Source: Mesorhabditis belari (lineage: Eukaryota; Nematoda; Chromadorea; Rhabditida; Rhabditidae). Taken from it: a stretch of 64,000 nucleotides of DNA. The DNA is taken from assembly GCA_958450365.1 (NCBI GenBank), contig CAUEEP010000023.1, positions 62,001 through 126,000 of the forward strand. The letters run 5' to 3'. The notes beneath the pieces were generated by a model. That model did no database searches and was not told the DNA's origin. It worked only from the letters and a program-made list of their open reading frames with translations. Of this stretch, positions 1 through 44,829 are shown piece after piece. The position numbers and the translations under genes are program-made. Numbering within the stretch: position 1 is the first letter of the stretch; the number at the start of each line of letters is the position of its first letter.

Positions 1-3000
1 TCTACTCGTTATTTGGCGGATGGCATCTATTTTCTTGTTCACATTCCAGTTTTGTGGTGTTTTACTGTTCCCCGATATTACACTCGATTGAATTTTGTGT
101 TTAACCTCATTTGTAGTTTCCAAATGCCCAAGTGAAACGGAGCCGATTGCTTTTTGAGTGGGAATGATTTTGACGCTAGTCGATTTGCTAATCATGTAGG
201 CGTGCTCATCAATATCGTTAGCTTGAACGCGTTCGGCGAATTCTTCAACCTCTTGATTTGAAGAGATGAGTCCTCCTGTTAGTTGGAGACGTTTCATTTT
301 CAAGTTTTTTGTGGTAATGGCTTGGTGAGAATGAATGCTGGAGATCGTTTTGATCTGAGCGATGTCTTCGTTTCTTTGATCGACGTCCACCCCAGGAACA
401 GGCACTGATACGCCTAAAAAATTAGATGTTTTAGTTCTGATCTTTAAGTGAATTTTTTCGTTTAAGCTTTCGAAATTTTAAGATCCCAAGCACCACTGTG
501 TATTCTTTGCCTCTTTAAAAGGAATTTCTCTTGAAAAATTGCAATTAAAACCTTTTGAATAATCCCCTCTGATGATCCTTTAAAAGGGTTCAATTGCAAT
601 TTTACCTCTGATGAATATGAATTTCTTTAAATTCTCACCTCCGATGACGATACACCCGATATCCACGGACACTTTATCGCTGCTGCTCGTTCTTGTCGAC
701 AACGTTGACGTGATTTCCATGGTGTCCACATCTCCCTTTACCTCGTCACACATTATATTTGCATTTTCTAACTTCACATTTTTTTCTTGAACACAATCGA
801 GCCTCCAACATTTGTTAGTTGATTTGTATATTCTACGGCTTTTGACGCGCTTTTCTCTGTGGTTATGTTGATTTTCAGCTCAGTGGGGACCAAAGAGATT
901 GTAAGACTTGATGATTCCATGCTAGATTCAAGTTTGTTTCCGATAAACTCAACATCCGGAGCGTCGATTATGAATTGACCCGTATTAATCTGCATGCCTT
1001 GGGCAACGAATTTTTTGGCCTTTATTTCCAAAGCCCCTGATGTTATCGAATTTTCGGCGATTGTCTGATATTTTTTGTTGGTTTCTGTATGGTTGAAACT
1101 GAGGGAGGTGAAGTTAAAACCTGAGCTTTGAGTGTACTCCTCATGCTTTAAAATCCGCTCCTTAAATGTTACTTCTCCTTCTTCAGCCAGCATGAATGTT
1201 TTTCCCTGGTTTTCAACACTTGATCCTTCGATTATAATGTGACCTTTTGTTGATTTGATTATATTAGAATCGTCGCCTTTTGTGATAAGTCTTGTTCCCT
1301 CGCTCATTTCTTGTGAATTGTAGCTGCTAGAGTTGTTCAGGCCCCACCAACTACTTTTGGTCGTTCGGGTAGTTCGCTGGGTTACCAAATCCAACAATTC
1401 AATGTTTCCTTCAACATCTAGGTAGACGTTTTCACCTGCAGTTATGTCGGTGGCGATCGAAGTGATTCCACCGTGTTCATTTTGCATAATGATTTTCCCG
1501 CCGGAAGCTATGTTCGATTTGTTAACGTCGGTCGAAGTGGTAGTCGTTGTTTTTTTGTTGAAGCCTAAAAAGCCTGACTTTTTTTCTGTTTGAGATCGGT
1601 GGGTAGTAGCGGCACTGGCCGTGATTCCGTGCGTGCCTTGTAGGATCATGTCGCCTTGACTGGATAGATTTGACGCGTAGACGTCTATTTTATTGCCGGC
1701 GTTCATGTGAAGACCTAAAGCGTTAAAATGTAAAACGTTATAACCACGATCCGGGTCCGAAGCAGGGCTGCAATACCCAATCCTGCCCTTTTAAAACCTT
1801 TCGGACGGTTTCGGCACACCAAAAAGGACAATTAAGCCCGGATATCAATATACAATAAGTTTTCCAGCTGGATGAATTGGAAATTTGTAAGAGATTAGCG
1901 CTCGACTCGGATCGAATTAAGCCTAAATCGTTGAATATGATTTTAGTGAAAAACGTGACATCTCACATTTTTCAAGCATATTCTGAAACTTAAGGTTTGC
2001 ATGTGAGTTTTAAAATTTAGGGCTTTTTTACAGATTTCCGGTTCGTCCAGCTGGAAAACTTGTCGGATATTGATTTCTGGTTCCGATATCCGACCGAACG
2101 GATTCGAACGATTAGGTTTATTCTGAAGTTATTCGGCATTAGCGACCAAGTTATAATAGAAAGGCTGCGCGAGGGCAATTTTTTACCTCTAAGTGCTAAA
2201 TTCGCCGAATAACTTCAGAAATTTGGCATTAAGCTTGTAAGTTTTTGAGAATAATCTGGTGCAAATCTCATTCAAATATATTGATTTTACGCTGAGATAT
2301 TAGCAATTTAGAAAAGGGCCAAGACTTAGTTTACAACCTAATACAGTCAAACTTCGATATAACGAACATTTTCTGGATAAATTACCGTATACTTTTAGTT
2401 TTTTGAGTGAATATTATTATATTTTCGTTGAAATTGAGTTAGGTATCTTAAAATTAGTTTACTTTTTGCTTGTCCACAATTTTTATTAAGTATACTTTTT
2501 CCTGTTATTCTTCATTTTTAGTAATAGCTTTATTTTTAGGTGATGGATCGAGTGAAAGCAAGTCGGTGATCAATCAATTTGGCTTTAAAGAAGCGGATAC
2601 TTGACCAATCGTCTTCAAAGGGAACTTCTGAATTGGCCAGGGATTTTGATCTACCACCATTCTTGGCAAGAGGTTAGCCATATTGGAAGCAATTGATGAT
2701 GGAGGAGTCACAGAAAAGGGCACGACTGAAGACGAGCAAATACGAGCTTATTGAGGAAGGAGTGCTTACTTGATTGAAAACAAGCTCGAAGCCAAAACGA
2801 ATGCGTGGATGGGGATTTACTTCGTAAAAAAGCGATAAAGTTGGCAAAAATGATGGGAGCTACTGATTTTCAAGCGAGTGGCGGCTGGTTGGACAAATTT
2901 AAGAAGTGACATGAGATTGTTTTTCGAACTCTACAAGGAGAAACTGCCGAGATTAATCTCGATGATGTCGAAAAGTTGAAAGCCGAAGTGCTAAATGAGC

Positions 3001-6000
3001 TTTTAATGGAATTCAACCCAAAAGATGTTTTCAATTTGGACAAAACCGCTTTATTTTGAAGATTGACGCCAAATAAAACAATGTCATTTAAGGGAGATCG
3101 GTGCACAAGTGGAAAAAAGCAAAGAACGAGTGACGAGTCTTGTTGGAACAAATATGGACGGAAGTAAAAAGTGTCCGCTTTTGATAATCGGAAAGGCCAA
3201 GCTACCAAGATGTTTCAAAGACACTAAAAAGCTTCAAATTCTGTACGAGGCCAATTTGAAAGCATTGATGACATGCGAATTATTTGAGGACTATATTAGC
3301 AAATGGAACCAAAAGCTGGTAAAGTTCAATCGGAAGATTCTACTTTTATTGATAATTCCCCTGCTCATCCAAAAATTGTTTTATCAAACTTTCGACTGCG
3401 ATTCTCCCTTCCAAATACAACAGCTGCTATTCAGCTGACATGGGAGTTATCAAAAATCTCAAAGTAAAGTATTAAGGATTTTTGATGAAGCGGAGAATCA
3501 ACGCAACTGACCAGAACGTTACTTTCAACTTTGATTTGTTGGACGCAATCCATTTGCTTGAACAATCCTGGAACGAAGTCAAGAGTTCGACCTTGATAAA
3601 TTGTTTCCGAAAGCGGGATTTATTACGCGTGATTCAGCACACAGAGGAGATGACATTGTTGAAGAGCATTTTGACGACGGAGGCGCTGAACTTTTTTCGG
3701 ATCCGATTTGGGATCAATTAAATGATTCTGATTAATTAAAGTTAATTAATTCTCGTGTTGATGCCATGGATTTGGCATTTGTCGATGAAGATGTTGCTAC
3801 AACAGGAATTCGAACTTTGGATCAAATAGCAAAAGGTTTGCAAACAATGAAAATTCCTTCGGGAAGCGAGAAAGAGGAAATGATTGAGGATGAAATTTCA
3901 ATCTCCCAAAGTGAAGCTTATTATCATTTTCAAATGGTTCAACGATACATAAAAAAGAACGGAACAACAGAAACTTTTTTCGGCAATGAATGCCATTGAC
4001 AATTTTTTCGACTAACAAGCTTCCTTGTTACAAAGCAATCTCATTTAACAGATTTTTTTAATGTTCTTTAGATAGTTGATTGTTGATAATTGTTCATTAG
4101 CTAACGATAAAACCAGTGGCTATTTCTATACAACGAATTTCAACAGAAATTAAGATTGTTGTTTCTATATAACGAATTATTTTTCCGGTCCCTTGCGATT
4201 CGTTATATCGAAGTTCGCTGTATATTCAAACACTCGATTAGGGCAAACAGACCTTTCGTGCGCCCTTCGCTCCCATAAGCATTTCCTTTTCCAGCTCTAA
4301 TATTGCTTGCTTTTGCTCTCGATCCCGAATGTTTCGCCGCATGTATATTTATGTCTCGAGCAGCTTTCATGTGAATCGAGTTTCCTGCAACATCCGAATG
4401 TTTTACATTTATTGAGCCTCTATTGCTCATCAGCCCAACATCACCGCCAGCTGATAAACTCGCATCATTCAAGTTAAGATCCCCATCTAAAGCTTGTGCA
4501 TGAAATGATTTTGACGTTGAAACTCGGCCGACAATATCAATACTTTTGAATTTCAACGATAAACTGCAATTTCGACTGAGGCTTCCGAGTACGAGTTTTT
4601 CATCGGTGACAGCCAAATCGAGCATATCTCTAACTTCCATCGATCGGAACACCCCATTGCCTTCTAGCAAATTTTTTGCATTTTGGCCTTCCATTCTTCT
4701 ACATTCAATCGATAAAGTCCCGAAACGGTGATTGGCCTGACCGGAAGCTGTCAAAAGATTTACGTTGTTTTGCGCCTTAGCTCTCATTTTTCCGGCATCT
4801 ACCCGACCGATCAAGTTCACATCAGCATTTTCAGACATCACCGAAATGCTATCAACAACAGCATCACCTATGTTTACGTTTTTCTTGGCATCAATCACAA
4901 CGTTTTTGCCTTTAATGCCAGGTACCGTTGCGGCTCCTTGCTTGGCCGTCAGTTTCGCAAGATCCGATGTGGCATTTGTAACATTTAGATCGTCTTCCGC
5001 TTCTGCTGCGAGTTTTTCCGAGTGAAAAACTCGTACTCGGAAGCCTCAGTCAGAATCATTTCATGCACAGTTCATCGTTGAAATTCAAAAGTATTGATAT
5101 TGTCGGCCGAGTTTCAACGTCAAAATCATTTCATGCACAAGCTTTAGATGGGGATCTTAACTTGAATGGTGCGAGTTTATCAGCTGGCGGTGATGTTGGG
5201 CTGATGAGCAATAGAGGCTCAATAAATGTAAAACATTCGGATGTTGCAGGAAACTCGATTCACATGAAGATGCTGTGAACTTCCCGGAAATTTCGATTGT
5301 GGAACTTTGAGCTTCTTTGGGATCTTCAGAAGTCAAGTCAACCGCTTTTTGAATGGCTTCATTGGATGTCATGTAAATGTTGGAAGATGTGTTCACGGTG
5401 CCGGTGATATCTAAATGTTCTTCTGATTTTTAGCTTAAAAACTTCCTGTCTTGCCAACTTAAAGATTTTCCCCTCAAAACTCTTACCTATTTTATCCTTG
5501 ACCACGAATTGGACTGCCTTCTTCTCGTCTTGTTCTACCAATTTCAAATTCACATCTTTATCCTTCAGAACTTCCATTTCTTTAGCTTTCAAATAATTCA
5601 TTTTCATGTTTGTCATCTTTTCGAATTCCACTCGAACGTCTTCGGCTAATCTATGATGCACACATTGCTCGACACCATTCCCTTGCAAAACCACTTTTTG
5701 GACTGCTTTTCCCACATGCAAGTTTATTATTTGAGAAGCCCCATTGTTGCCGAAATGAAACGCTTCAACTTCGTTTTCGAATCGCAAATTTCTAGCTTGG
5801 AGCAAACCGTTTTCCTGAATTTCTATCAAGAAAGTTTTGTCTACGGACTTTTGAGGAGAAACAATCAATAAATTAAATTCATGATTCCCATAGATTTTCA
5901 AAGAGTTCTCTCCCAAAATGCGTGTCACTTCATTTTTCGTCTTTCCGAGTTTGATATCCGAATGAAGCTCGACATTTTTACCCATGATTTGGCACGATTT

Positions 6001-9000
6001 TGTGGGTAGGATGCATTCAGAAAGTTCATTCGATTTGCAGCAAAATTCGAACTTTGGAGATACATTTGCTGAGATGGCTAACTTTTCTTCCACATCAAGA
6101 CAGCCATCTAGTTTACAATCGTTGATGGTCGTGTATTTGATATCGGCATTGGTAGCGGTTATTTGTCCACGGAGATTATCGATATCATTGACTTTGATCT
6201 CAAGGCGGATTGCCTAAGAAAGTTTTTATGAGAAAAAGGTGGTCAAACAAAATATATTTGTCTACTTTTTATCTTATTGAAATAACTCTCAAGAGCTGGA
6301 ATTAAAGAAGAGAAACAAGTTGGGAAATTTCAGAACCCCAAATTGTACCTAGAGCTTGTAAAAAAAGTGTCTGTCAATTAGTACGCGCTTACCTGAACAA
6401 CAGATTCGTTCACCAAATTTCCCTTTCCAAAAATCCGTAATACGTGTGCTATCAGGGCTTCTTGATTGACCATTTTCTCTTGTATGCAAAAATTTGCGTC
6501 CATCAAATACGGGCAACTTTTCTCATAACTCCCATACTTCCACACCCATTATTCACCAGTTTCTCGGCAAACACACAGTTTGAGGTGCTCGTTTGGATGA
6601 TCGCACCGTTGTGGAGAGTATATTTGCAGATGATCCGTTGTTGAGGGTCATTAGATGAGGCGAGAAAGATTTGGGCTCGTGATTGGGTGAACAAGGTTCG
6701 ACATTCCACTAAATTGCTAGCTTTTTCATCGGTCGAAACGTTGTTGCAAAGGACAATTCGACCGATATTAGAGCATTGGACGTCCACCTAAAATTTTGTG
6801 CTATAAAAGTCATTGCAGATCTTAAACGAGACTTCAAAATTTAAACTGACATTTAAACTATTTCCGTCACTCTTTTAATCATATTTTCTTAAGGATTGTA
6901 AGAAAAGGGTTGAAGTTTTTTTTTTTGAAAAGTATAGTTCGCGACATTTCCTCTTTTTGACGCCCTTTCCTAAAAATGCCACTTACTTCTGATCCAAAAA
7001 TTCCATGTGCGTGCAACCATCCATTTATTGAAAACCCGAAATATGCACTCTCATCCCTTACTTCCAAATTCTCCTTTTCTCGATACTCCAAATACAACGC
7101 TTTTTCGTGCACTTTGAGCAATCCATTCACCGAGAAAAACGATTTCTCCAAGGAGTTCAGCGTGATCGCAGCTTGATCGGCATAAACTTCTCCACTTGAA
7201 ATCACATTTCCAATCGCCAAAATGATGAGCAGCCTTGTCTCGACCAATCCCAACCATTCTCCATCTTGTGAAGTGTTGATTTTGAGTGTAAGCTTTCCAT
7301 CTACCTTTAGTTGTCCAGATTGAGACTGCTCGAAATTGGCGCTAGCTATCTGAAGCAGATCCTCAATAGCCCAAGTGCCTTTATTGCGAAAGTGTTCATT
7401 AAGCACATCGCCAGTGTTGGCTTCAATTTTTGCATGAGTTGAAATGAAAATCTTCTTATTGCTGAAAAGATGCATTTCTTTGAATTGCCATATACCGAAA
7501 GTGGCCGACCACATGCCGACGATTCCATGAAAATTTGATGCCGTTAAAAACGCGTTGCTCCCGGTTTTGAAGTTTTCATAAACATTTGTTGTTAGTCGAT
7601 TTCTGACGGATAGAAAGCCGTTGCATTCAAGGAGCTTTGTGTTGATCTCGAGAAAATCCTCGACGCCAAATTCCGTGTTCTCATGAAAAACAGTTTGCTC
7701 GTCAACCGAGAAAGCTCCGCTCAAAATCTTGATTTGTCCATAAACGTCGAAACTTTTTGCAACGTCCATATTCACCAATCCAGAAGACCAGATAGAATCA
7801 TTCTCACAAATTGCCAACCCACCCACTTTCAAAGCAACTCGTTCACCTTCAATTTGAGCACAATCCTCCAAATTGTTTTCTAACTTTAACTTAATTGAGA
7901 GAGCTGTGATCTTTCCCCGTTTCCAATCATGCGTTTTCATTAGCGCTTCGGTTTGGTAGTCGTTAGTGTCCATATTTTTCAGCGACTTTCTAGCCAACTT
8001 TCGAGGTGTCGTTACACCCTTCTCGCATTCAATTTCTTCTTTTGAATCGACACCAGACTCGAGTAGACTAGCGACTTGAGACACTTTTTTCTCGTTTATC
8101 GATTTACCAAGAGTTTCAGAGGAGAGTTGGCCAGTGTCGGAATGGTCATGTGCGATTTTGAATAGACCTTTGATAGCTTTAAAACCCCGATGTGCTGTGT
8201 CGGATTTGTTGTCACGAACGGAAAGGATATTCCCAATAGAAAGATCGATAAGGGAACTGGAGATGATTTGGCCAAAATTGCTAATGGAACCTGAAAAGAT
8301 TCTCAAGAAAATTGTACAAATTGCTTACTACAATCTTTGGTAATTTTGGCATGAAAAAAACTCGACTTTGACGGCCATGTTTTTTTGATGCAAAAACCGG
8401 GGTTGCTTCTTAACTTAATTGAGCAAATTTTTAAAAAAAACTATTTTTTATATCAAAAGTTTCTACAAGAGAACAACGTTTTAGATTTGAAAGTAATTTT
8501 CCCAGTTCTTGAAAGCTTTTGGAGCGATTTTCAAGCCAATGCTCGACTCGCGTACCTGTTATTTTCCCGATCACACGTTTGCTAATCTTTCCACTTATAT
8601 CAACCCCAATATAGCCGCCAATCGAAATGTGCAATTGATTCGCGCAGATGTTGAGTTCCAATTCCGGCGCGTACAAATGGCCATCGAAAGACAAGGCAAC
8701 TGAATCAGTTTGGAATTTTCGACAATTAATGCATGTTTCCAATGTTCGAATCGAGAAGTCAATTGCATGGAGATTAAGCACGTTGAAGTCGAGCTTGTTC
8801 GAATTGAGAAAGAGATCATTTTCGGTGGAAACTAGCGAGAGACAATCGCCGGTCAGTGATTTGGCACGTTCGACTTGCAAATTCGGAGCTTCGATGACCA
8901 AGTCTTTGATGATTTTGGAAGCGGTTTTTATGATTGTCGTTTTTAGCTCTCCTTAGGAAACAAGTTCTTTTGTCTAAAAAATAGTTTTTGAAGAAAAAGT

Positions 9001-9253
9001 TATTTACAAGCTTTTACCTTGAGCGTCACTTTCAAAACTAAGTTGTTGTTGACTTCGTTTAATGAAACACCCAAATTTTGGCCCATGCCTAGCACCATTT
9101 CTTTGTCTTTATGAGAACTGGACCATTTTCTATGGTCTGTCACATGAACACAAATTTCATCGAGTTTGTAATTGATTGAGTTCGTCGAATTTGCAGATTT
9201 TGTTTGAATGATCAAAATTTTCAGTTTTGGAATAGTTTGCATTGTTGCACTAT
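1..9253 (-). CDS. Filamentous hemagglutinin/CdiA-type repeat protein, intron-containing, runs off the window
   Basis: Seen: a chain of minus-strand exons in compatible phase, approximately 9018-9253, 8556-8946, 6987-8290, 6511-6787, 6393-6448, 5487-6213, 4253-5422, 639-1714 and 1-413, open at the window edge. Good donors and acceptors include CAG|GTAAGC at 6393, AG|GTAAGAG at 5487 and TTTTCAG at 8291. The first ATG is at 9242; an upstream exon is possible. The protein is rich in short beta repeats of the type 'NLRGQITATNADIKYT', 'ASLSAGGDVGLMSNRGSI' and 'SSWWGLNNSSSYN'. Known: such repeats form right-handed beta-helices in bacterial two-partner-secretion adhesins such as FHA and CdiA; animals normally lack them. 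Inferred: an acquired gene that gained introns. Odd: the reading frame shifts in a run of A near 780-790, and exon 4253-5422 is interrupted by an inverted copy of itself. No secretion signal, TPS domain or C-terminal effector domain is visible here. It could be a decayed copy. Confidence 0.72.
1843..2221. repeat. Nested short inverted repeats in the intron of the hemagglutinin-like gene
   Basis: Two inverted pairs are visible. 'AAGTTTTCCAGCTGGA' near 1857 is mirrored near 2046, with 'GGATATC' and 'CAATAT' shared further out. 'TTCTGAAGTTATTCGGC' near 2121 is mirrored near 2205. They lie in the 2.5-kb intron 1715-4252 beside the Tigger element and look like small non-autonomous hairpin elements. 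No coding was found in 1720-2340. Confidence 0.5.
2344..4220 (+). mobile_element. Tigger/pogo-like DNA transposon, degenerate
   Basis: The element is bounded by inverted termini of the form CAG(T/C)(C/G)AA(A)CTTCGATATAACGAA and flanked by TA at 2342-2343 and 4221-4222. Broken plus-strand frames from about 2870 to 4000 read as a pogo/jerky-class transposase: 'DVFNLDKTALF' near 3030, 'LVGTNMDGSKKCPLLIIGKA' near 3140, and 'FIDNSPAHPKI' with 'RFSLPNTTA' near 3340-3430. Known: this family (CENP-B-like DDE_1) inserts at TA. Multiple stops and frameshifts make it non-autonomous. It sits inside an intron (1715-4252) of the hemagglutinin-like gene, so it need not disrupt the host reading frame. Confidence 0.85.
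5023..5267 (+). repeat. 245-base inverted copy of 4367-4602 inserted in the same exon
   Basis: The plus strand here encodes the same repeat as the minus strand at 4367-4602 ('GRVSTSKSFHAQALDGDLNL' in both), with about one residue changed (D to G) and one 9-20-base patch replaced near 5051-5071. The copy is inverted relative to the gene, introduces stops into the minus-strand frame, and its edges are clean. The minus-strand frames on both sides (to about 5270 and from about 5020) appear to belong to the same exon. The two arms would form a cruciform with a roughly 420-base spacer. Confidence 0.8.
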
Positions 9254-10040: not shown

Positions 10041-10265
10041 GTCACTTTGCCGAAGCCGATGATGAACCAACCTCTTGTTAAGAGTGTTATTAACTACAAA
10101 TATCAATTGTTAAAATTTATTTAAATATAAAAAAAGGGATTTTCAAAATAGAATAGAAAGGAATCAGTGTGAGATGTGTGGGGATCGGTTCTTCAATAAA
10201 ATGATGAGCGCCTGGGAGGGCTCTTCTTGTCGAAATCCGTCGAGATGTTCCAGAGTTTGATTACC
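9974..10265. repeat. Inverted repeat partner of 44767-45040
   Basis: Reverse complement of 9974-10265 matches 44767-45040 almost throughout, including the end of a hemagglutinin-like gene, the spacer and the terminal exon of the small convergent gene. A few short insertions and deletions separate the copies. Confidence 0.8.
10193..10265 (-). pseudogene. 3' end of a second hemagglutinin-like gene
   Basis: The minus-strand frame 'NISTDFDKKSPPRRSSFY' then stop (10193-10195) matches the C-terminus encoded at 44770-44829 ('NISTDLDTKSPPGPASFY', stop). The frame is not maintained above 10265. It is therefore a remnant tail of a hemagglutinin-like gene upstream of, and in the same orientation as, the one at 1-9253. 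Confidence 0.6.
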
Positions 10266-13210: not shown

Positions 13211-14704
13211 TACAGTCATGTGCAAAAGTCTTTTCACATTCAATTTTCTAAAAAGTTTCATCAATTTTCTTTGATAAAGCTCATGGCGCTCTTTCAGCCA
13301 TTAATAGTTTTAGTTACACAAATTTATGTACAATTTATTTACACGAACGTTATCGGTATACAACACTTATTCATTGAGAAAAAAGTATAATTGTCAAAAC
13401 ACCCCTGAAAATCGCGGTGCAAAAGTCTTTTCACCTTTGCAAAAATTTTATTATTTTTGTTCGCTTCGTATTTACTGGTACTATTTTTTTTTTCAGATGC
13501 CAGGAGCGTACTTGTCAACTCCGGATAAAGAAAGGATCGTCGAGGCAAGGGAGGAAGGAAGGAACGTTGCTCGCCTCTTAGGATGTAGGCCCACAACAGT
13601 TTCTCTTGTTATGGCAAAAATGAATGCGTCTGGAAATGTGCACAGATGTAGGAAAAAGGGACGGCCGAGGATTACAACAAAGGATGAAGACCGATTCCTT
13701 ACGGGAGTTTTCAAGAAGGATCCAAATTTGACGTTGAACGATGGAGTCATTCTTTTCAAACAAACGTCAAACAAGAATATTTCCCGCTGGACCTTGCATC
13801 GACGCTTGCTTCAAGGAGCATTGTATACTAGAAGACCTGCTTTCAAGCCTATGATGACAGCCAAACACAGGAGGCAACACCTTCAATTTGCTCGAATCTA
13901 TTCAAATTGGACAATCAATGATTGGGCCCGAGTGATTTTTGTTGATGAAACAAAAGTTGATATTTTTCCTTCAAGTCGAAATCATCTGATCCGACGTCCA
14001 ATTGGAAAGCGATATCAACTCAAGTACTTGCAACCCACGGTGAAAATAGGCGGAGGATCAATTATGTGTTTCGGCAAGGATAATTTCCTTTTTATGCAGC
14101 CCAATGTGATTTCTTTAGGTGCGATGTGTAAAAGTTCAACAGGTCCGCTGGTCCTCGTAAAGTCAACATTGGATATATTGAGATAATGGACAGATGTCTA
14201 CTTCCATTTGCGACCGCTTCGATGGATTCAGGATGGTTTCTTTATCAAGATAATTCGCCAGTACACAAAAGCAAACTTTGGATGGGCCGCGTTGTGACTC
14301 TTTCGGATGGAGGAAAAGCACATTTACCGGGATGGTCTGGAATCAATCACGTTTCTTTAATCAAGTCCACCATTCTCACCGGATTTAAATGTTATTGAGA
14401 ATTTATGGGCTTATTTGAAATCAAAATTGCGAGGAAAACGATTCAATTGTAAAGTCGAGCTATGGTTTTATATCAGGAAAATTTGGAGGACGATTGGACC
14501 TGGAATTCTTGATGAATTAATTGCATCGATGCCTACTCGTATTAAAGAAGTACTTTTGGCAAAAGGAGGAGCGATTAAATGTTGATTAAAGCTTAATTTC
14601 GTTTTGTGTGAAAAGACTTTTGCATCACGATTTTCAGGGGTGTTTTGATAATTATATTTTTTCTCAATGAATAAGTGTTGTATAGCGATAACGTCGTGTA
14701 AATA
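13211..14704 (+). mobile_element. Tc1-like element with long inverted termini, truncated at the right end
   Basis: 13328-13438 is mirrored at 14609-14704 ('CAACACTTATTCATTGAGAA' in the left arm). The left side extends outward to 13211 and repeats 'GCAAAAGTCTTTTCAC' at 13219 and 13420, an IR/DR arrangement; the outer right repeat is absent. Transposase starts at 13498 ('MPGAYLSTPDKERIVEAREE'), with 'VIFVDETKVDIF' (first Asp), 'YQDNSPVHKSK' (second Asp) near 14255 and, in another frame, 'FSPDLNVIENLW' (Glu) near 14380. Frameshifts after about 14080 and 14300 and the lost right end make it immobile. It is absent from the other arm. Confidence 0.85.
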
Positions 14705-14873: not shown

Positions 14874-16141
14874 TTGGGTTGGTGAATTGAAAACTGCCGG
14901 CTATTTCGCGGGACTCGCAGATAAAAAACAAGAGCATTGGACCAGCTGAAAGGGGGTTTGGTTACTGAACATTTCCTCTAATTATTCCGAAAAAATTATG
15001 CTTCCATCTTTTTATTTTTTGGTATTTTTCTTCATTCCTTCTCTTGCACTCGACAATCTGCCACAATATTCGTCATGTCATGCTTCATGAGTTCCTACAA
15101 GAGAACAGTGCAGGCTTGGCAGTGCTGCTAATATTAAAAAGATATATGGGGAGGACTCACCTTCCAAAAGAACGTGTCGAGTATGGTTTGCCAAGTTTCG
15201 ATCTGGGGACAAATCTTTGAAAGATGCAGAGGGCCGTGGAGCGGCACCCCAACTGGATGACTCCAGATTACTCGAACTCATTAGCAACGCCCATCGGGTA
15301 TCATCGCATGAATTGGGAGAAGAGTTAGGGGTTGATCATGCTACGGTGCTAAGGCACCTCCATACCCTTGGATTTAAATCGAAGCTTGGGGCTTGGGTGC
15401 CCCTTGACCTCAATGAACCCGAGAAGTGGCAGCGCGCCTCGATCAGTGCCGCTCATCTCTCACGATACAAAAGGAAATCTTTTCTTCCTCGAATTATGAC
15501 AGGAGCTGAGAAATGGGTCTTATCTGTGAACTTTCAGAGGAAGTGGCAATGGGTGGGGCCAGGCGAGAAACCCGAGAGTGATCCCAAGCCCGATTTGCAC
15601 CAGAAGAAGTTTATGCTCTGCGATTTCTGGGATATGGAGGGAGTGGTGTACTGGGAGTTGCTGGATAGCAAGACAACCGTTCATGCAATCAAATACAGTG
15701 AACAGTTGGGAAAGGTGAATGAATCCCTCAAGAAGAATAGGCCCTTCAAGTCAAAGATCGTTCTCATCCACGACAACGCGCGCCCTCATTTTGCCCTCAT
15801 TTTGCAAAACTGACTTGCTCTAAAATAAATATCCTCGTTTGGGAGCTTTTGGTGCATTCCCCATACAGTCCGGACCTCGCCCCTTTTGATTACTATTTAT
15901 TCCGGATCATGAGTAATAAGCTTGCGGGAGAACACTTCGAGTCGGAAGAAGTAGTCAAAAATTGGCTTTGAAAGTTTTTCGATTCAAAACCAAAGTCCTA
16001 CTACGAAAGAGGAATCCGCAAATTGCCAGTAGAATGGGCAGAAGTCATCAATAATAATGGAAATTATTTCGAATGAATTCATGGTTTTATGTTGAATAAA
16101 TTTTAGTTCAACGTCCGGCAGTTTTGAATTCACCAACCCAA
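14874..16141 (+). mobile_element. Mariner element with a substituted catalytic residue
   Basis: Termini TTGGGTTGGTGAATT and AATTCACCAACCCAA are flanked by TA at 14872-14873 and 16142-16143. The main frame 15217-15813 gives 'GVDHATVLRHLHTLGFKSKL' and 'VLIHDNARPHFA'. A shifted frame gives 'HSPYSPDLAPFDYYLF'. Known: mariner transposase has TGDEKW around the first catalytic Asp; here it is 'MTGAEKWVLS' near 15500, so that Asp is Ala. Frameshifts near 15100 and 15810. It interrupts a coding exon of gene 1. Confidence 0.9.
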
Positions 16142-16978: not shown

Positions 16979-19900
16979 ATGACTACTGTACTTTTACGGC
17001 TATTATTAGTCAGTGAATTGGCTTTTCTATTGTTTTCCTTGATTTCAGGGCAAAATTACGCGGGAGCGCTCGTCAATTATCCTCCAATTTATCTTACATC
17101 ATACAATTATCCATGGCCTTTCGATAATCCAACCGATTATCCACGATGTCAACAGGCTCGAGCCGATTTCTCGCCGTTAATTGTGGGGATTTTAAGCAAA
17201 CAGGGTCTTTTGGTCTAGATGTCCATAGGAGCACGTATTTGACCGCTTTATACTCAAATATTCCGTAGATTGACTGAGTTTTTAAAATTTTATTTAATAG
17301 TGGAAAAGTTGTGGATAAAAGAGACGCGACCCGTGTTTTACCGTTATGCTCTTATACAGGGTGCGGCAGAATTATAGGTGCATGACATAAAGACGGAAAA
17401 CGAGCCTTCGCTCTTGATTTTGCACTCGAATTTATGTTTTTGTTGTTATTTTATGATTGAAATTGTATTTGTAAATTATAATTTTTTATAACTTTGAGTT
17501 TCAGGCCATGGTTCGCGCTTGCCCGCATCGACAATTGATCGTGGAACTTCATCGGAAGGGCGAATCGGCGACCGTGATCGGAAGAAAGTTGGGAGTGCAT
17601 CGAAACGTTGTTAACGGAGTCATTCAACGCTACAACGAGTTGGGATCAATGTCTGATCGGCCGCGAGGAGGTGTTTGTCCATCTGTGGTGACGAAAGGCA
17701 ACATCAAGAAGGTCAGGGATCGCCTGCGAAAGAAGCCCAATCAGTCCGCTCGAAGAATTGCCAAACATATGGGTGTATCCGATCGATCAATCCGTCGAAT
17801 TATCAAGGGCAAGCTCAAGTTCAAGCCCTACAAGCAGAACAAATCCGCTCTGCTTTCGGCAGGCGCCAAATTGAAGAGAAAAGATCGATGTGAAAGCCTT
17901 CGTCTTCGTTTCAACGGAATCGACCATAGGAACATTTTGTTCACCGATGAGAAAATTTTTACGATTGAAGGAATTCTGAACAAGCAGAACGATCGAGTTT
18001 GGTCGAAAACTCAACCAAATGTTACCGTCGGTCGCAGCGGCCACCCAGATTCAGTCATGGTTTTTGGCGGTGTGACGGCTTCCGGCAAGACACCACTGAT
18101 TTTTGTGCCACAAGGAGTCAAAGTTAATGCGAACACGTACTTGGATATGCTAAAGAAAAAACTTGTTCCCTGGGCTCAAAATCACTTCCAAAATCGCATC
18201 TGGACCTTCCAGCAAGATGGTGCTCCCGCTCACAAAGCCAAGATTGTTCAGGATTTCTGCAAAGCGACTTTTCCCGACTTCATTGCATTCAACGAGTGGC
18301 CCCCAAGTTCCCCAGACCTCGATCCATTGGATTTCTCGGTCTGGTCTATTCTTGAAGCCGAGGCCTGTCAGAAACCTCACAAAAACCTCGAAAGTTTGAA
18401 GAAATCTCTCTTGAAAGCCTGGGAGGGTCTGGACGCCGCCTACTTGGTCGCCACGGTCGACGCCTTTCCCAAGCGACTCAAATCTTGCATCGACGCCAAA
18501 AGAGGAAGATTCGAATATGATCAATAAAAGTTGTTAATTTAAGTTCAATAAATATGTTAAAACTGTTTTTGTGGCAAATTTTTCGTTTTTTGGTCATATT
18601 CCAATGGAACTTCTCTGCACCTATAATTCTGCCGCACCCTGTAGACATGCAGCCGAGAATTCCTGTCTATCTGTCTCTGTCATTCTCCGGAATAGTTGGG
18701 TATAAAGGGTTTTCCATTATAATGGAATGTATAATGCATTATACTCCTCTAGACGTCTAGACCAAAAATACCATTCCCACGATTGGGACACGAGTGAATT
18801 TTAGTCAAAAACCGAGCGCCGCATCGCCATTGATGTGATCAAATTGGAAAACGGTACTCTGAAACTATTTTATGGCACAAATCCATCAAACGAAAAGGGA
18901 TTTTGCATAAATCCGAAAACCGAATCAAAAAGAATCGAGTTTGTGGCAGAGATTAGCAAAAATGAGATCATTTCAGTCTCGTCGATCAACAAAAAGTCGC
19001 CGTCTCAGCGGAATGCTTTCATGTGAGATCGTTTAAAAAGCAATGATTGGATCGGAAAATATTATAGCTCGAGTTTTGTCCCCTTCAAAAAGGCACAAAA
19101 GACCGTTTTGGTTTTGTGGTGAAGGCGAGTCGAGCGCCGGTCGATCCGAAACTCGTCGAATGCAAGCTGACCCACACGTTGAGCACCGAGAACCCACAAG
19201 TTCTCCTCAACGTCGAAAATATCTTCTACCTAGAGTGTTCGTTTATTTCTTCGTCTTTTGGTACTTGTGTCCTAGTGGGCTAAGGCTTAGGCTTAGTCAA
19301 GGTTAAATTAACATTTAACTTCTTGCAAATAGACCCAGAGATGACTGTCATTGTGATAATTCTTAAAGAAAATTCAGCGATTTTTCCAGAAAATGTGTTA
19401 ACTTGATGAGCGTCTTTAAATAGTAAGCAGAGATGTTTCTAATGCAAATTTTGTGCCCACCAAATGTCCAAACACTTTTTTGAAATCATATTTAAAAAGT
19501 GACTGGTGTGAAGCCAATTTGTGTGGAGAGGAAATGTGCAAATGCTTCGCGTTGTCCGATCATCATTGATCTTTCGTTTTCTTGTTACATTGAGGATGAG
19601 GTAGCAGAAAAGTGCCACTCTTATTTGTTTTTCTCTTTTTCTAGGACCGTTGCATCAACTCATCTCCATACACAATCAACGGTGAACGTCCAGAAATCAA
19701 AGATTGGGAGATTCGGTGACAAATCTTTGTTTTTTATTGGAATGTTTCCTTCAGGTACACATCTCGACGTGTATATTTTCTGCTACAGGCTCGCCTCGTC
19801 AAAGAAAGTCGCGTCTATTTGAGTTCGGATGCCGATTCTTCGGCCTCTTTCTATGGGGGCTACTCATTTCGATTGCCCAACACAACGCTCGGTTTGTTTA

Positions 19901-22344
19901 CTCAACAGCGCTTACAGAGAAGAAGTTTTCTCCTCCATTCTATAATGCACTGCTACCGTAACCTGAGCGATTTTTCGCTCTGTTCTTGTTTTTTTGCGTG
20001 TTTTTTTTTTCATTGATCTGCTATTTGGTGTTTGGTTGAAAAAAATGGGAAATTCTGAAACTTTAAACGTTTAAAGCTTTGCGAATATGAAATGTCGTCC
20101 ATCGATTTGAGAAGATACGTAAAACAAAGCTTCTGCCATTTTAATTATTAAAAACGACTTAACTTTCTTTCTGGAGTCGCTCCGGCACATAATAAAGTCG
20201 AATTGGTAAGGAAAGAATAAAAAAAATAACAAATAGATGAAAAAAAAAACACGCTTTTAGGACAAAAGAGCGAAAAATTGCGCGGTCACGGTGCATTTTA
20301 GTGTATTTTAGAATGGTGGACAAAATTCTTCTCTGTAAACGCTTTTGGGTGTTTGTTTTCGTTTTGGCTACTGTGTGATTTTGAAATGATACACTCACGC
20401 CGGTTTGAATCCGACCAGCACCACAAAGTTCAGACCAATTCCTGGCAAAAGAATTAGATTATCTAGTGATAAATTATGGCCAATTTGAACAGGATCAAAG
20501 TTACAAAAAACTACGAAATTTCGGTTGTGATCGGATTGGACCGAATGCTCATGTCTAGTGATTTCCCCTTCCTTTCAGATGAGACGAATTTCTTCTTCTT
20601 GCCCGTCACCAAGTCGCTTCACATGCGTGAATTCGGCTTTCGATTCGCCGAGTCGCCACGCGGGACGTGGTTTTCGATGGTTTTAGTAGTCGAGGCAGTC
20701 CTGCGACTGAGGAAATTTCGCGGAGTAAGCAGTTTTAAGGTTTAGTTCCTCTGGAGAACAGAGGAGATTTGACAGAGAAAGCCAAGCTATCGTCCTAAGT
20801 TATTTATTGCTTTCAACGATATGCAAGTAGTGTTAACAAAACATTGAACGATGATCAGAAAGAGTACTGGAGCAATGACCTCCCCTTTACTGCAGACATT
20901 TTCTGGTTTTCAACAAAAACCCACAAAAACTGTCTCTTAGGATCACGGGAATCGCTCGTGCGAGTATCAAATAGTGAACGGGCCACCCAGTAACTTCCTT
21001 GGCCATCCCGAGCTTCTATTGAACACGTATCGGTAAGTTTTTCAATGTTTCGGCTAACGTCTCAAACAGAGTGTTCTTCTCAAAAGACACATAATTTCTA
21101 GAACAACAGTAATCAAAGAATTAGTTTTAATTGAAGCGCTGGCTGACTGAGTATTGTGATTCCTCATCAATTGATACTAAAATTGAGCTGTTTGAATCAT
21201 TGAGAATCAGATGAAGAGGTTTTTAGCGGATTTATAAAAGAGCACTCAAATTTCAATGAGTCTTTAGTGATACCGATGTCTTTCAAGAGCAATATCTCAC
21301 ATCTCCATCCTACAGTATCTACATACCACCTGGATGTGCTCCAAGTATCGCTTTCAGCACATATTCCAGTAAATTTTGATATTACTTTGCTTGTTTCATA
21401 TCTTTCTCGTACAGTAGGCACCGACCCGAGGCTGACACTTCGTAATTGTGGTGGGACGGTATTTCTCGTGGTTCTCGAGGATCAAAATGTCCCGTTGTAC
21501 GAAATAGAAGCTGCCTATTTTTGCGGTCAAGTTCATTCTTTTTTATCTTTCTTTTCTTTACCTGCAGACATTTGCACTTAACCGAGTCCCGGCCCAGATT
21601 CGGATCGAAGTCGGAAAATTTGTGCCGGTTCGATTTGGTAGCAAGATTTACAAGGCATCTGGTAGCAAGGTTGTGTGAAAACCATCAAGATTATTGTATT
21701 AAATTTTGAAGATAAGATAATAAGATAATTTTTATGTATTAAATTTCTCTTGTTATGGTAGCAGACAGATGAAATTTGATAACAAAAATTGCGCATGGCT
21801 TAATCACAATGCACCCACTGAGTGCTCAACAAACGTCATGGGGTTTTTCCTCCTCGATTAAAAGGGAGCTTATTCTGTTTGTTTTCAGATCTTTTCCCCG
21901 TCAACATATCTTTTCAAACAAATTCTATTGGATTCGGTCAAATCTCGGTTCAATATCGGAAGAATCTCGGCGACGATTGGATAGATAGCGAGTTAGCTTC
22001 TTTAAAATAACAGCTTATTTTTTGAAATTGAATTTGATTCAATTTTCTTTTAGCGTCAACACGACACTTTCGAATGTGCGAGCGGTTCAGGTAAAAGGGA
22101 AAAGAGTGAGAAAATTGATTGTGAAATACTTCAGCTTCAATGTTACATTGTGTCCAAATGGGAGAAATACAAGAAATGCTTCGTGAAGATTCATTTTGTC
22201 CGTTCTTTCGACAATGGATTCGACGATCGATCACCGGTAACCCAAAATCCATCAAATCAAGCTGAGAGATGCCCCAATCCCATCTCTTTTTTTACATTTA
22301 CTCTTTCACTAGACATCTTTTTCTTTCTCAACACTAGCCGGTAG
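16979..22344 (+). CDS. Gene 2, copy A: secreted multi-exon CUB-like protein
   Basis: ATG at 16979 gives a signal peptide 'MTTVLLRLLLVSELAFLLFS', then 'YLTSYNYPWPFDNPTDYPRC', the S-x-N/YP start typical of CUB domains. Further exons: about 18653-18695, 18805-19022 ('KLENGTLKLFYGTNPSNEKG'), from 19068 ('GFVVKASRAPVDPKLVECKL'), 19645-19715 ('CINSSPYTINGERPEIKDWE'), from 19755 ('FYGGYSFRLPNTTLGLFT'), about 20476-20745, 20947-21031 ('SCEYQIVNGPPSNFLGHPEL'), about 21267-21524, 21568-21640, 21887-22010, 22057-22091 and 22140-22344. The frame stays open in all copies to a hydrophobic C-terminus 'SFFTFTLSLDIFFFLNTS'. Inferred: a secreted or membrane-tethered nematode-specific protein with repeated CUB-like units. 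The palindrome at 19905-20355 follows the 'GLFT' exon and may truncate it. The best preserved of the four copies, with copy B. Confidence 0.6.
17357..18641 (+). mobile_element. maT-type (DD37D) Tc1/mariner element with intact transposase
   Basis: Inverted termini CAGGGTGCGGCAGAATTATA / TATAATTCTGCCGCACCCTG are flanked by TA at 17355-17356 and 18642-18643. An uninterrupted 339-residue transposase runs 17508-18527. The N-terminal helix-turn-helix part has 'ARRIAKHMGVSDRSIRRIIK'. The catalytic residues are 'LFTDEKIF', 'FQQDGAPAHKA' and 'SSPDLDPLDFSVW'; the last two acidic residues are 37 residues apart and the third is Asp, the DD37D signature of maT elements. Copies B and D of gene 2 have an empty site with a single TA. 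It lies in the first intron of gene 2. Likely a recent, possibly active insertion. Confidence 0.93.
19905..20355. repeat. Palindrome duplicating a gene 2 exon end in inverse orientation
   Basis: The exon end 'CTTACAGAGAAGAAG...CCATTCTATAATGCACTG' and the following 'TACCGTAACCTGAGCGATTT' reappear inverted at 20260-20350. The same arrangement occurs in copy D (56160-56430), but copy B has only one half (ends near 30720). The spacer has no coding. Confidence 0.7.
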
Positions 22345-32000: not shown

Positions 32001-33586
32001 TACGGTAGGTTGTCCATTGCGATTTTAAAAACGATTTATCTGACCTCAAAATCAATGGTTTTTGACGTTTTTGGTCTTAAAATGACCAGAAAGAAAATAC
32101 CTTTAAAAATTCGCCGGGGATTTTTGATCCCTCCTAAAATGCGTGTTTTCGAGTGCTTTTTAGAAAACCCATAATGGGATTTTTGGGTAAATCTCATTTT
32201 TAAGAAAAACTGTAGAACCGATTTTTAAAAAAGTTTCAGATTCGAAATCAGCGCAATTTTTTACGTCGATTGGTATGTCAAACTTGAATTTTGACCAGAA
32301 AAATATTTTTTGCCTTATTTCGCGCCGTTGTGTAACGTCTCAAACAGTGTTCTCCTCAAAAGACAGCTAATTGCTAGAACAACAGTAATCAAACAATTAG
32401 TTTTAATTCAAGCGCTGGCTGACTGAGTATTGTGATTCCTCATCAATTGATACTAAAATTGAGCTGTTTGAATCATTGAGAATCAGATGAAGAGGTTTTT
32501 AGCGGATTTGGAAAAGAGCGCCCAAATTTCAATGAGTCTTTAGTGATACCGATGTCTTTCAAGAGCAATCTCTCACATCTCCATCCTACAGTATCTACAT
32601 ACCACCTGGATGTGCTCCAAGTATCGCTTTCAGCACATATTCCTGTAAATTTTGACAGTACCTTGCTTGTTTCATATCTTTCTTGTACAGTAGGCGACCA
32701 TCTGATGCTGAGACTTCCTAATTGTGGTGGGACGGTGTTTTTCGCGGCTCTCGACGATCAAGCGAGTTACCCGTTGAAGCAAATAGACGCTGCCTATTTT
32801 TGCGGCCAAGTCTATTCTTTTTTATCTTATTTTTCTTTACCTGTAGACATTTGCACTTAACTGAGTCCCCGCCCAGATTCGGATCGAAGTCGGAAAATCT
32901 GTGCCGGTTCGATTTGGTAGCAAACTTTACAAGGCATCTGGTAGCAAGATTGTGTGAAAGCCATCAAACTTTTTGTATTAAATTTCTCTTGTTATGGTAG
33001 CAAACAGATGAAACTTGATAACAAAAGCTGCAACGAGTGCACATGGCTTAATCACAATGCACCCACTGAGTGCTCAACAAACGTCATGTTGTTTTTCCTC
33101 TTCGATTAAAAGGGAACATATTCTGTTTGTTTTCAGATCTTCTCCCCGTCAACATATCGTTTCAAACAAACTCTATTGGATTCGGTCTAATCTCGGTTAA
33201 ATATTTGAAGAATGTCGGCGACGATTGGATAGATAGCGAGTTAGCTTCTTTAAAATAAGAACTTATTTTTTGAATTTGATTCAATTCTCTTTTAGCGTCA
33301 ACACGACACTTTCGAATGTGCGAGCGGTTCAGGTAAAAGGGAAAACAGTGAAAAAATTGATTGTGAAATACTTCAGCTTCAATGTTACATTGTGTCCAAA
33401 TGGGAGAAATACAAGAAATGCTTCGTGAAGATTCATTTTGTTCGTTCTTTCGACAATGGATTCGACGATCGATCACCGGTAACCCAAAATCCATCAAATC
33501 AAGCTGAGAGCTGCGCCAATCCCATCTCTTTTTTTACATTTACTCTTTCACTAGACATCTTTTTCTTTCTCAACACTAGCCGGTAG
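29017..33586 (+). CDS. Gene 2, copy B: secreted CUB-like protein
   Basis: Same exon order as copy A. Signal peptide 'MTTVLLRLLLVCELAFRLFF' from 29017, 'YLTSYSYPWPFDNPTDYPRC' near 29140, 'KLENGTLKLFYGTNPSNEKG' near 29580, 'GFVVKASRVPVDPKLVKCKL' near 29850, 'SVNGE'-type cysteine exon near 30395-30455 and 'SCEYQIVNGPPSNFLGHPEL' near 31235. The exon at about 32543-32801 contains 'NCGGTVFFAALDDQ', and the end near 33586 is the hydrophobic tail 'SFFTFTLSLDIFFFLNTS'. The exon after 'GLFT' reads on into a stop near 30748 rather than the palindrome of copies A and D. The foldback element lies in the intron after 'LLNTYR'. The start region lacks the stops found in copy D, so this copy may be functional. 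Confidence 0.55.
31337..32333. mobile_element. Foldback transposon with ~390-base arms and a coding-like centre
   Basis: The arms 31337-31725 and 31940-32333 are near-perfect reverse complements, starting CACAGCGGCGCGAAA and ending with its complement, flanked by TAACG. Copies A, C and D have an uninterrupted site. The centre holds a short open frame on the plus strand near 31832-31960 ('DAWAQRLKKDLKAYLQCMSS', 'YAEELNEVMKTFKKIQ') with no family match known to me. Confidence 0.9.
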
Positions 33587-41929: not shown

Positions 41930-44138
41930 GAGGCCACTCTGCACGAGTTTTTAGATATCTTGAGTTTTGTTAGTAGCGTGCAACCGCACGTGAGGCTGTT
42001 CAAGGCATGGTTTCGAATCGGAAATGAATCAAATCGAATCAAATAGGATTCTTTTGAATGTAAATGATCAATTCCATGTTTGTGACACGTGTTATAGTGC
42101 TTCTTTTTGAAATGTTTATCGTTGGATCAATAAAACTGTAGAAGAATATAAAAACTTTGTGATCAAGACAGGAAAATGAGCAAAAAGTTGAGTTTAGTTT
42201 TAGAAAACGTTTTTGTTTGAGAGTTTTTTTCATAAGTTTCCAATCGTTTGCAAAAAGTGTTTATTCTCATCACTCAAACAAGTTACTTATTTCAACTGTG
42301 TAGTTTGCAAAGGCAGATTAACTAATTTCATGAATGGGTATCACAGTAGTCACGTACCTATAAAAGTTAAACAAAATGGGAAAGAAAGCGACATGTTATC
42401 AATAACGAAATATGAAGCTTACAGCCTACAAACGATCAAACGTTTTGAGTTGAAAAATTTAAAAAAGCTACCAGCTAGTGTTGAAAAAGAAAAAGATGTC
42501 TAGTGAAAGAGTAAATGTAAAAAAAGAGATGGGATTGGCGCAGCTCTCAGCTTGATTTGATGGATTTTGGGTTACCGGTGATCGATCGTCGAATCCATTG
42601 TCGAAAGAACGGACAAAATGAATCTTCACGAAGCATTTCTTGTATTTCTCCCATTTGGACACAATGTAACATTGAAGCTGAAGTATTTCACAATCAATTT
42701 TTTCACTGTTTTCCCTTTTACCTGAACCGCTCGCACATTCGAAAGTGTCGTGTTGACGCTAAAAGAGAATTGAATCAAATTCAAAAAATAAGTTCTTATT
42801 TTAAAGAAGCTAACTCGCTATCTATCCAATCGTCGCCGACATTCTTCAAATATTTAACCGAGATTCGACCAAATCCAATAGAATTTGTTTGAAACGATAT
42901 GTTGACGGGGAAAAGATCTGAAAACAAACAGAATATGTTCCGTTTTAATCGAAAAGGAAAAACAACATGACGCTTGTTGAGCACTCAGTGCATTGTGATT
43001 AAGCCATGTGCACTCGTTGCAGCTTTTGTTATCAAGTTTCATCTGTCTGCTACCATAACAAGAGAAATTTAATACAATAGAAACTATCTTCAAAATTTAA
43101 TACAATAAGTTTGATGGTTTTCACACAATCTTGTTACCAAATCGAACCGGCACAAATTTTCCGACTTCGATCCGAATCTGGGCCGGGACTCGGTTAAGTG
43201 CAACAGGCAAAGAAAAAAAAGATAAAAAAGAATAAACTTGACCGCAAAAATAGGCAGCGGCTATTACGTCACTCTTTTGATCCTCGAGATCCACGAGAAA
43301 CACCGTCCCACCACAATTACGAAGTAGGTCGCCTCGGTGCCTACTTTACGAGAAAGATATGAAACTAGCAAAGTACCATCAAAATTTACAGTGATAGGTT
43401 CTGAGAGCAACACTTGGAGCACATTCAGGTGGTATGTAGATACTGTAGGATAGAGATGTGAGAGATTGCTCTTGAAAGACATCGGTATCACTAAAGACTC
43501 ATTGAAGTTTGGGTGCTCTTTTCTAAATCGGCTAAAAACCTCTTCATCTAATTCTCAATGATTCAAACAGCTCAATTTTAGTATCAATGGATGAGGAATC
43601 ACAATACTCAGTCAGCCAGCACTTGATTTAAAACTAATTCTTTGATTACTGTTGTTCTAGAAATTACGTGTCTTTTGAGGAGAACACTCTGTTTGAACCG
43701 AAAAATTGGAAAACTGACCGATACGTGTTTAATAAAAGCTCGGGATGGCCCAGGAAGTTACTGGGTGGCCCGTTCACTATTTGATACTCGCACGAGCGAT
43801 TCCCGTGATCCTAAGAGACAGTTTTTGTGAGTTTTTGTTGAAAACCAGAAAATGTCTGCAGTAAAGGGGAGGTCATTGCTCCAGTACTCTTTATGATCAT
43901 CGTTCAATGTTTTGCTAACACTACTTGCATATCGTGGAAAGCGATAAATAACTTAAGACCATAGCTTGACTTTTTCCGTCAAATCTCCAGCGTTCTCCAG
44001 AGGAACTAAACGTTAAATCTGCTTACTCCGCGAAATTTTCTCAGTTGCAGGATATCGTCGAATACTAAAACCATCGTAAACCACGTCCCCCGTGGTGACT
44101 CGGCGAATCGAAAGCCGAATTCACTCATGTGAAGGAAA
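41930..44138 (-). repeat. Copy C: partial inverted duplicate of gene 2 3' half
   Basis: Reverse complement matches 20612-22880 of copy A. The right edge at about 44138 abuts hemagglutinin-like coding sequence. Confidence 0.85.
42468..44110 (-). pseudogene. Gene 2, copy C: 3' exons only
   Basis: Contains the exons for 'SHLYPTVSTYHLNVLQVLLS' (about 43265-43490), 'ALNRVPAQIRIEVGKFVPVR' (about 43150-43200), 'VNISFQTNSIGFGRISVKYL' (about 42800-42920) and the tail ending near 42468. The exon at 43300 is shortened and shifted relative to the other copies. The signal-peptide half is absent. Confidence 0.65.
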
Positions 44139-44829
44139 AAAAACTGGAATGTGAACAAGAAAATAGATGCCATCCGCCAAATAACGAGTAGAAAAGCAGA
44201 GACAAAAGGGATGATGGCTCATGTGGGAAAAGACGGGGTCAAATTGCAAATCAACGAATTCGGTGCTGGTGCTACGTATTCGAAAGGAAAAGGCGCTGAT
44301 ATTATGATCAAAGGACGTAATTTTGCTATCGAAGCTGGATTTAACAAAGACGACGGCACAAAAATGCACATGAAAACAAAAAAAAACCGAGCATAAGCTC
44401 AAATTCTCGTCTAAGGACAAAAAAGCCGAGGTACTAATCAAACAAGCTGACACCGAATTTTCGCTTGACGTTGGTCAAGAAGGTGGTGAAATCAAAATTA
44501 GCGATGGCGACACTAGCATTCAACTGGGTGACAAAGATTCGGGTGCACAAATCGATATCAAAACCAAAGATCAATCGCTCAGCATTGGTGTCGGTAAAGC
44601 AGCCGTGAAAGTAGGCTTCAGCGATGTAGATCAAAAATTTAACGTCGGAACCGATTTGAAGCAGAATCAGGCGTATGTCGACGTGCACTTGCATGATGGT
44701 ACAAAAATCAGTGCAGAAGCGCAAGAAAAAGAAGTTTGGGGTCTGGAGTTAGGCGACGGGAAGAATAAACTGAACATCTCGACGGATTTGGACACAAAGA
44801 GCCCTCCTGGGCCCGCATCATTTTATTGA
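44139..44829 (+). pseudogene. C-terminal part of a hemagglutinin-like gene
   Basis: 44139-44192 is identical to the reverse complement of positions 1-53, where the gene at 1-9253 leaves the window. So this block shows what the gene's 3' end probably looks like. Frames 44151-44396 and then 44394-44829 read 'GVKLQINEFGAGATYSKGKG', 'IQLGDKDSGAQIDIKTKDQS' and 'SIGVGKAAVKVGFSDVDQKF', with a stop at 44827-44829. The frame shifts in a run of A at about 44378-44387. A putative polyadenylation signal AATAAA follows at about 44900. The block lacks the upstream exons. Confidence 0.65.

Follow-up and report, generated by a model that had tools for sequence, protein, structure and literature searches.

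Can a gene of the bacterial filamentous hemagglutinin (FHA)/CdiA type become a spliced gene of a nematode? The question is raised by a stretch of 64,000 nucleotides from Mesorhabditis belari, hereafter the window, which covers C5:62001-126000 on a contig (C5) of 341,037 bases within an assembly of 207.6 Mb in 714 contigs. An original prediction had placed nine minus-strand exons in phase at the start of the window, and read them as an acquired hemagglutinin-type gene adapted to its nematode host. We find the gene twice on C5, in copies about 120 kb apart: copy A, which lies in the window and is a decayed duplicate, and copy B (C5:180491-192437), which is apparently whole. The exons do lie where they had been placed, and their phase is intact in copy B, but the window copy has a stop, frameshifts and lost parts of exons 6 and 7. 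We consider it probable that a bacterial hemagglutinin gene was transferred into a nematode ancestor, and that introns, domain loss, duplication and selection followed; this is the explanation that best accounts for the data.

Our reading of copy B has nine exons of 225, 436, 1304, 396, 727, 1458, 1050, 1080 and 1325 bases, separated by eight introns of 44 to 2,645 bases, all of which are GT-AG and fit in phase. The coding length of 8,001 bases gives 2,666 residues with no internal stops, in a sequence-based model made without RNA, for which the junctions were chosen by eye. As read in this way, copy B is a spliced gene integrated in an animal genome. The junction between exons 7 and 8 is supported by a protein of the nematode Diploscapter pachys, because the alignment of copy B with that protein passes the junction without a gap. 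The longest intron, intron 7 (2,645 bases), aligns with intron 7 of copy A over 2,502 columns at 7.2% divergence, so the transposon insertion found in the copy A intron is probably older than the duplication. In both copies the ATG lies 11 bases past a TTTACTTTAG acceptor, and both the acceptor and the 11-base leader are identical between them; an acceptor in this position would suit trans-splicing. The exact SL1 leader occurs 430 times in the assembly and its backward control not once, which identifies the host genome as that of a nematode. SL1 gene arrays were also seen on contigs C280, C286 and C372, with spacings of approximately 870, 1,550 and 960 bases at the places listed.

Parts of copy A align to all nine exons of copy B, with 95-99% identity in the main blocks. 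Compared to copy B, it carries an in-frame stop in exon 2 and frameshifts in exons 4, 8 and 9, and a rearrangement has taken out the greater part of exon 6 and the beginning of exon 7, leaving between them an inverted exon 7 piece of about 250 bases. On the strength of these lesions and of the alignment to copy B, we rejected the window copy as a working gene; it is broken but genuine gene sequence.

The two copies can be compared for signs of selection. In 2,036 codons, taken from the single best aligned block of each exon with gapped codons and one nonsense codon excluded, we counted 82 synonymous changes (1,322 sites) and 112 nonsynonymous ones (4,786 sites). These counts give a synonymous divergence (dS) of 0.065, a nonsynonymous divergence (dN) of 0.024 and a dN/dS ratio of 0.367 (Fisher p = 6e-11), from which we see that the sequence has been maintained as a protein. 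Individual exons give ratios of 0.15-0.50, with the exception of exon 7 (0.99, with 3 synonymous changes), and divergence in the seven of eight introns that were compared is 2-8%, within the range of dS.

The hemagglutinin-type repeats named in the original prediction are borne out by the Pfam family PF13332 (Fil_haemagg_2), for which the curated cut-off is 22 bits. Copy B scores 37.2 bits, the D. pachys protein 50.4, and two frames in the window 37.1 and 32.7; in both copies the matches fall in exons 7 and 8. Reversed sequences, used as a control, gave no Pfam family. A profile was then available from four bacterial segments, taken from 4 of the 13 plasmid records found by the tblastn search described below. 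Against copy B this profile gives 41.6 bits, compared to -41.7 for reversed copy B and 2.0 for the best of 400 shuffles. The score is concentrated in exon 8 (37.4 bits) and exon 7 (16.8 bits), with none of 500 shuffles as high for either, while exon 6 gives 3.8 bits (2/500 shuffles as high); the segment 2101-2400, which overlaps exon 8, gives 15.6 bits (0/500). Two stretches of copy B, residues 1794-2048 and 2146-2279, align to the bacterial profile in the same order as they occur in it, and hhalign pairs the nematode and bacterial profiles over 304 columns with a probability of 94.4% and 23% identity.

A relative exists in a second nematode. A search with exon 8 against 5.77 billion proteins (2,369 candidates scored, limit E <= 10) gave a single match, WR25_15979 of D. 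pachys (E 5e-48), which is 49% identical to exons 7-8 of copy B over 364 residues. This sole animal match itself carries PF13332 (3.7e-13), rather than belonging to an animal family unrelated to bacterial repeats. Its database model has 390 residues, compared to 2,666 for copy B, and its last residues look by eye like the DGKN-type repeat at the C terminus of copy B. When residues 1250-2250 of copy B were compared with proteins in a length range that did not take in the 390-residue WR25_15979, nothing came up at E <= 0.01 among 7,979 candidates scored, and the N-terminal 1,440 residues gave nothing at E <= 10 among 7,995. The protein and genome searches depend on shared short words, so they do not prove that relatives are absent elsewhere.

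Bacterial matches are weak. Two tblastn searches against 72,556 plasmid records gave best E values of 0.07 and 0.01, and a hemagglutinin lies under the match in 7 of 8 annotated records (plus 5 unannotated there) and in 11 of 12 (plus 5 unannotated), although several of these records are close kin and hence not independent. The N-terminal 1,440 residues had a single plasmid match, to a NUDIX protein (E 0.2). Two scans of a prokaryote genome collection, each with two 8-residue patterns, matched 74 and 58 stretches and confirmed no relatives among them; PHROGs and phage searches gave no match, and neither did an NCBIfam scan of nine frames. A PDB sequence search found nothing for exons 7-8 and one match at E 0.44 for WR25_15979. 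The nematode gene has PF13332 repeats in common with bacterial FHA/CdiA two-partner secretion (TPS) proteins, such as Rahnella sikkimica WP_192938191.1 and a plasmid frame of Rhizobium sp. CCGE532; these are rod-shaped proteins of the bacterial surface, which serve in adhesion to other cells or in attacks on them. It differs from them in that it has introns and C-terminal repeats of its own, lacks the TPS domain, and shows low identity.

The original prediction had also remarked that no secretion or effector domain was seen in the window, and the Pfam scan of the copy B protein likewise detected no such family. The TPS secretion domain PF05860 has no match at E <= 1 in its 2,666 residues (2.6e-50 for a bacterial control); a genome scan for this domain was likewise empty, but the positive controls of that scan were also silent. 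The maximum 19-residue hydropathy within the first 60 residues is 0.23, with no clear signal peptide. A scan for one kind of signal exon up to 2.2 kb upstream gave two candidates in copy B and six in copy A, none above thresholds; the gene may have a further exon upstream. Lacking a TPS domain and a clear signal peptide, the protein looks unsuited to the bacterial export route. CdiA-type C-terminal toxin domains are diverse; no toxin family was found by Pfam in the whole copy B protein at E <= 1.

Structure prediction adds to this comparison by way of WR25_15979, which represents the exon 7-8 part and for which a beta-helix shaft is predicted. Among the best 50 of 529 aligned chains, the top ranks are HMW1 and HxuA of Haemophilus influenzae (2odl, 4i84), at 12-13% identity, and there are no FHA or CdiA entries. 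The two top-ranked structures are secretion domains, whereas the nematode part matches the repeat model. A Foldseek search was not significant, and a single-sequence fold of exon 3 was unusable (pLDDT 29.7).

Several of these results weigh against a bacterial origin, and would suit instead a native nematode beta-helix family that came to resemble hemagglutinin repeats by convergence, its strands and turns satisfying a permissive Pfam model. The bacterial matches are approximately 25-36% identical and short, none is significant singly, and they do not resolve a donor group. The N-terminal 1,440 residues are unmatched, and the structural search fell short of significance. The bacterial profile gives -1.5 bits for exons 1-3 (40/500 shuffles as high), -2.5 for exons 4-5 (27/500) and -6.0 for exon 9 (418/500); judged by sequence, clear bacterial likeness is absent from exons 1-6 and 9. 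The nematode profile performs more weakly against the four bacterial segments, and L021 alone is clearly above its shuffles (20.6 bits, shuffles up to 6.8), the other three being no better than theirs. Set against convergence, PF13332 is over its cut-off in both copies and in D. pachys and disappears on reversal, exons 7 and 8 score far higher with the bacterial profile than their shuffles do, the two top structural ranks are both two-partner-secretion proteins, and the annotated weak tblastn matches are nearly all hemagglutinins. We therefore regard convergence as improbable.

It is also conceivable that the gene is dead, or a passenger of segmental duplication, with copy B also unexpressed and its function recently lost. 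The region is heavily duplicated, with repeated blocks and transposase frames around the window gene, and copy A is indeed broken. When D. pachys is taken as the outgroup, the changes in exon 8 are split almost evenly between the lineages of copy A (6) and copy B (7), with 9 unresolved in 249 columns, and exon 7 has one unresolved change (128 columns). These counts fit a late breakage of copy A, and they give no sign that copy B is under stronger constraint. Nevertheless, copy B has an open frame of 2,666 codons, the dN/dS ratio between the copies is 0.367, and about half of the residues are shared with D. pachys over exons 7-8, which makes a dead gene quite improbable. Finally, the repeat family is bacterial by its Pfam naming, as would be expected of contaminant or endosymbiont DNA in the assembly. 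Such an origin is vanishingly improbable and was rejected, given eight GT-AG introns that agree in phase, a transposon held by the window copy at the place of the largest of them, and a relative in the records of a second nematode.

Bacterial origin thus remains the best fit; the direction of transfer, the parts lost and the function are inferred. In such a history, a filamentous-hemagglutinin/CdiA-type bacterial gene would have entered a nematode ancestor by horizontal transfer, in an old event, and would have gained introns (eight in the copy B model). The N-terminal TPS secretion domain would have been lost or replaced and any C-terminal toxin part lost, and selection has preserved the protein sequence. 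Copy A arose by segmental duplication and was later broken, and copy B is apparently whole. In terms of the original prediction, the nematode host, the fitting introns and the repeat family all stand in favour of an acquired and adapted gene, but the copy on which that idea was based is a broken duplicate.

The product would be a long beta-helical rod from which hairpins protrude in the part encoded by exon 8. Such a rod under selection suggests binding or spacing, and most likely it would bind a partner, for example a glycan or a bacterial surface, probably as an adhesive or a scaffold, having abandoned bacterial two-partner export. An adhesive role at the body surface or in the gut is a tentative suggestion, and an intracellular scaffold is only slightly less likely. 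It would be a bolder proposal, and one that we think unlikely, that in some nematodes the shaft of a contact weapon or adhesin of bacteria was domesticated, with the secretion domain and toxin dropped and a new repeat tail added, to make a 2,666-residue rod that binds bacteria or other cells. Nothing in the analysis pointed to a toxin.

The known bacterial transfers into nematodes are mostly of enzymes. If the account given here is true, a very large spliced hemagglutinin-type rod gene, selected and present in two nematodes, is an unusual transfer, and with it one could ask whether bacterial machinery for adhesion or competition can be put to use again in animals. Diploscapter can be grown in the laboratory, which makes the gene testable there. 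In a survey of asexual genomes, candidate horizontal gene transfer was near 1% in 16 of 23 species (PMC7953838), and the word hemagglutinin appears in the main text neither of that survey nor of the paper on the D. coronatus genome (PMC5483258). Among the matches listed from the open-access literature (titles and abstract starts), a coverage that takes in few subscription papers, none described a gene of the hemagglutinin type in the genome of a nematode. The gene is real, unusual in nematodes, bacterial in the type of its core and, as far as these searches show, unreported.

Exon 9 of copy B contains a tandem repeat of 69 bases (23 residues) in 4.7 copies, and has no Pfam family over cut-off in the whole-protein scan. 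Pieces of exon 9 occur at eight places on C5 and C661, counting both gene copies (from 13 candidates). The tail copies previously noted at 10193 and 44139 are confirmed (Table 1). Overall, we found in this genome a single copy that is apparently intact, a broken one, and several fragments of the tail, distributed over C5 and C661, in agreement with the small family that had been proposed.

Table 1 Features of copy A and of its surroundings; positions are those of the window unless a contig is named.
Feature	Position	Strand	Remarks
Copy A exon 1	9018..9242	-	96.4% to copy B exon 1, gap-free
Copy A exon 2, 5' end altered	8556..8973	-	404/436 copy B exon 2 bases align; one nonsense codon, in-frame
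Copy A exon 3	6987..8290	-	1,304 bases at 96.8% to copy B, gap-free
Copy A exon 4, frameshifted	6393..6787	-	Single frame-breaking gap vs copy B
Copy A exon 5	5487..6213	-	727 bases at 97.7% to copy B, gap-free
Copy A exon 6 remnant	5269..5410	-	142/1,458 bases; alignment with copy B stops here
Partial duplicate of exon 7, inverted, at the break	5015..5272	+	Protein match at 90% identity; 251-base inverted blastn block
Copy A exon 7, 5' part missing	4253..5024	-	772/1,050 bases at 98.3%; the frame containing it matches PF13332 at 1e-7
Copy A intron 7 with transposon sequence	1715..4252	-	DDE_1 match 4.1e-16, + strand frame 3067-3438
Copy A exon 8, frameshifted near 3' end	639..1714	-	95.1% to copy B, frame-breaking gaps; the frame containing it matches PF13332 at 4.5e-9
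Copy A exon 9 start	1..411	-	Continues beyond the window edge to C5:61295; frameshifted past the edge
Stray copy of the exon 9 end (58 bases)	10193..10250	-	93.1% to copy B exon 9
Stray partial copy of exon 9, frameshifted	44136..44793	+	Matches in two frames, 87 and 90% identity
Exon 9 region fragments outside the gene copies	C661:45545-45778, C661:104193-104321, C5:214814-214942		
Transposase frames, Tc-type and mariner-type	13314-14183, 15091-15810, 17475-18524		
270-codon frame	51250-52059	-	Weak Radical_SAM match, E 0.0042, below cut-off

Some minor observations concern the surroundings of the gene. Frames of approximately 114-126 codons (ELDEEVF type), similar to each other, lie at 21204-21578, 32480-32857 and 54460-54801 in the window and also elsewhere on C5, and their recurrence marks repeated segmental duplications on this contig. 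COX1 with TGA codons is found on C584, which is probably mitochondrial, and a short COX1-like stretch at C540:2338861-2339049. The 270-codon frame of Table 1 reads like a bacterial B12-binding radical SAM protein and is possibly a second acquired gene; a similar, partial frame lies at C5:53135-53900.
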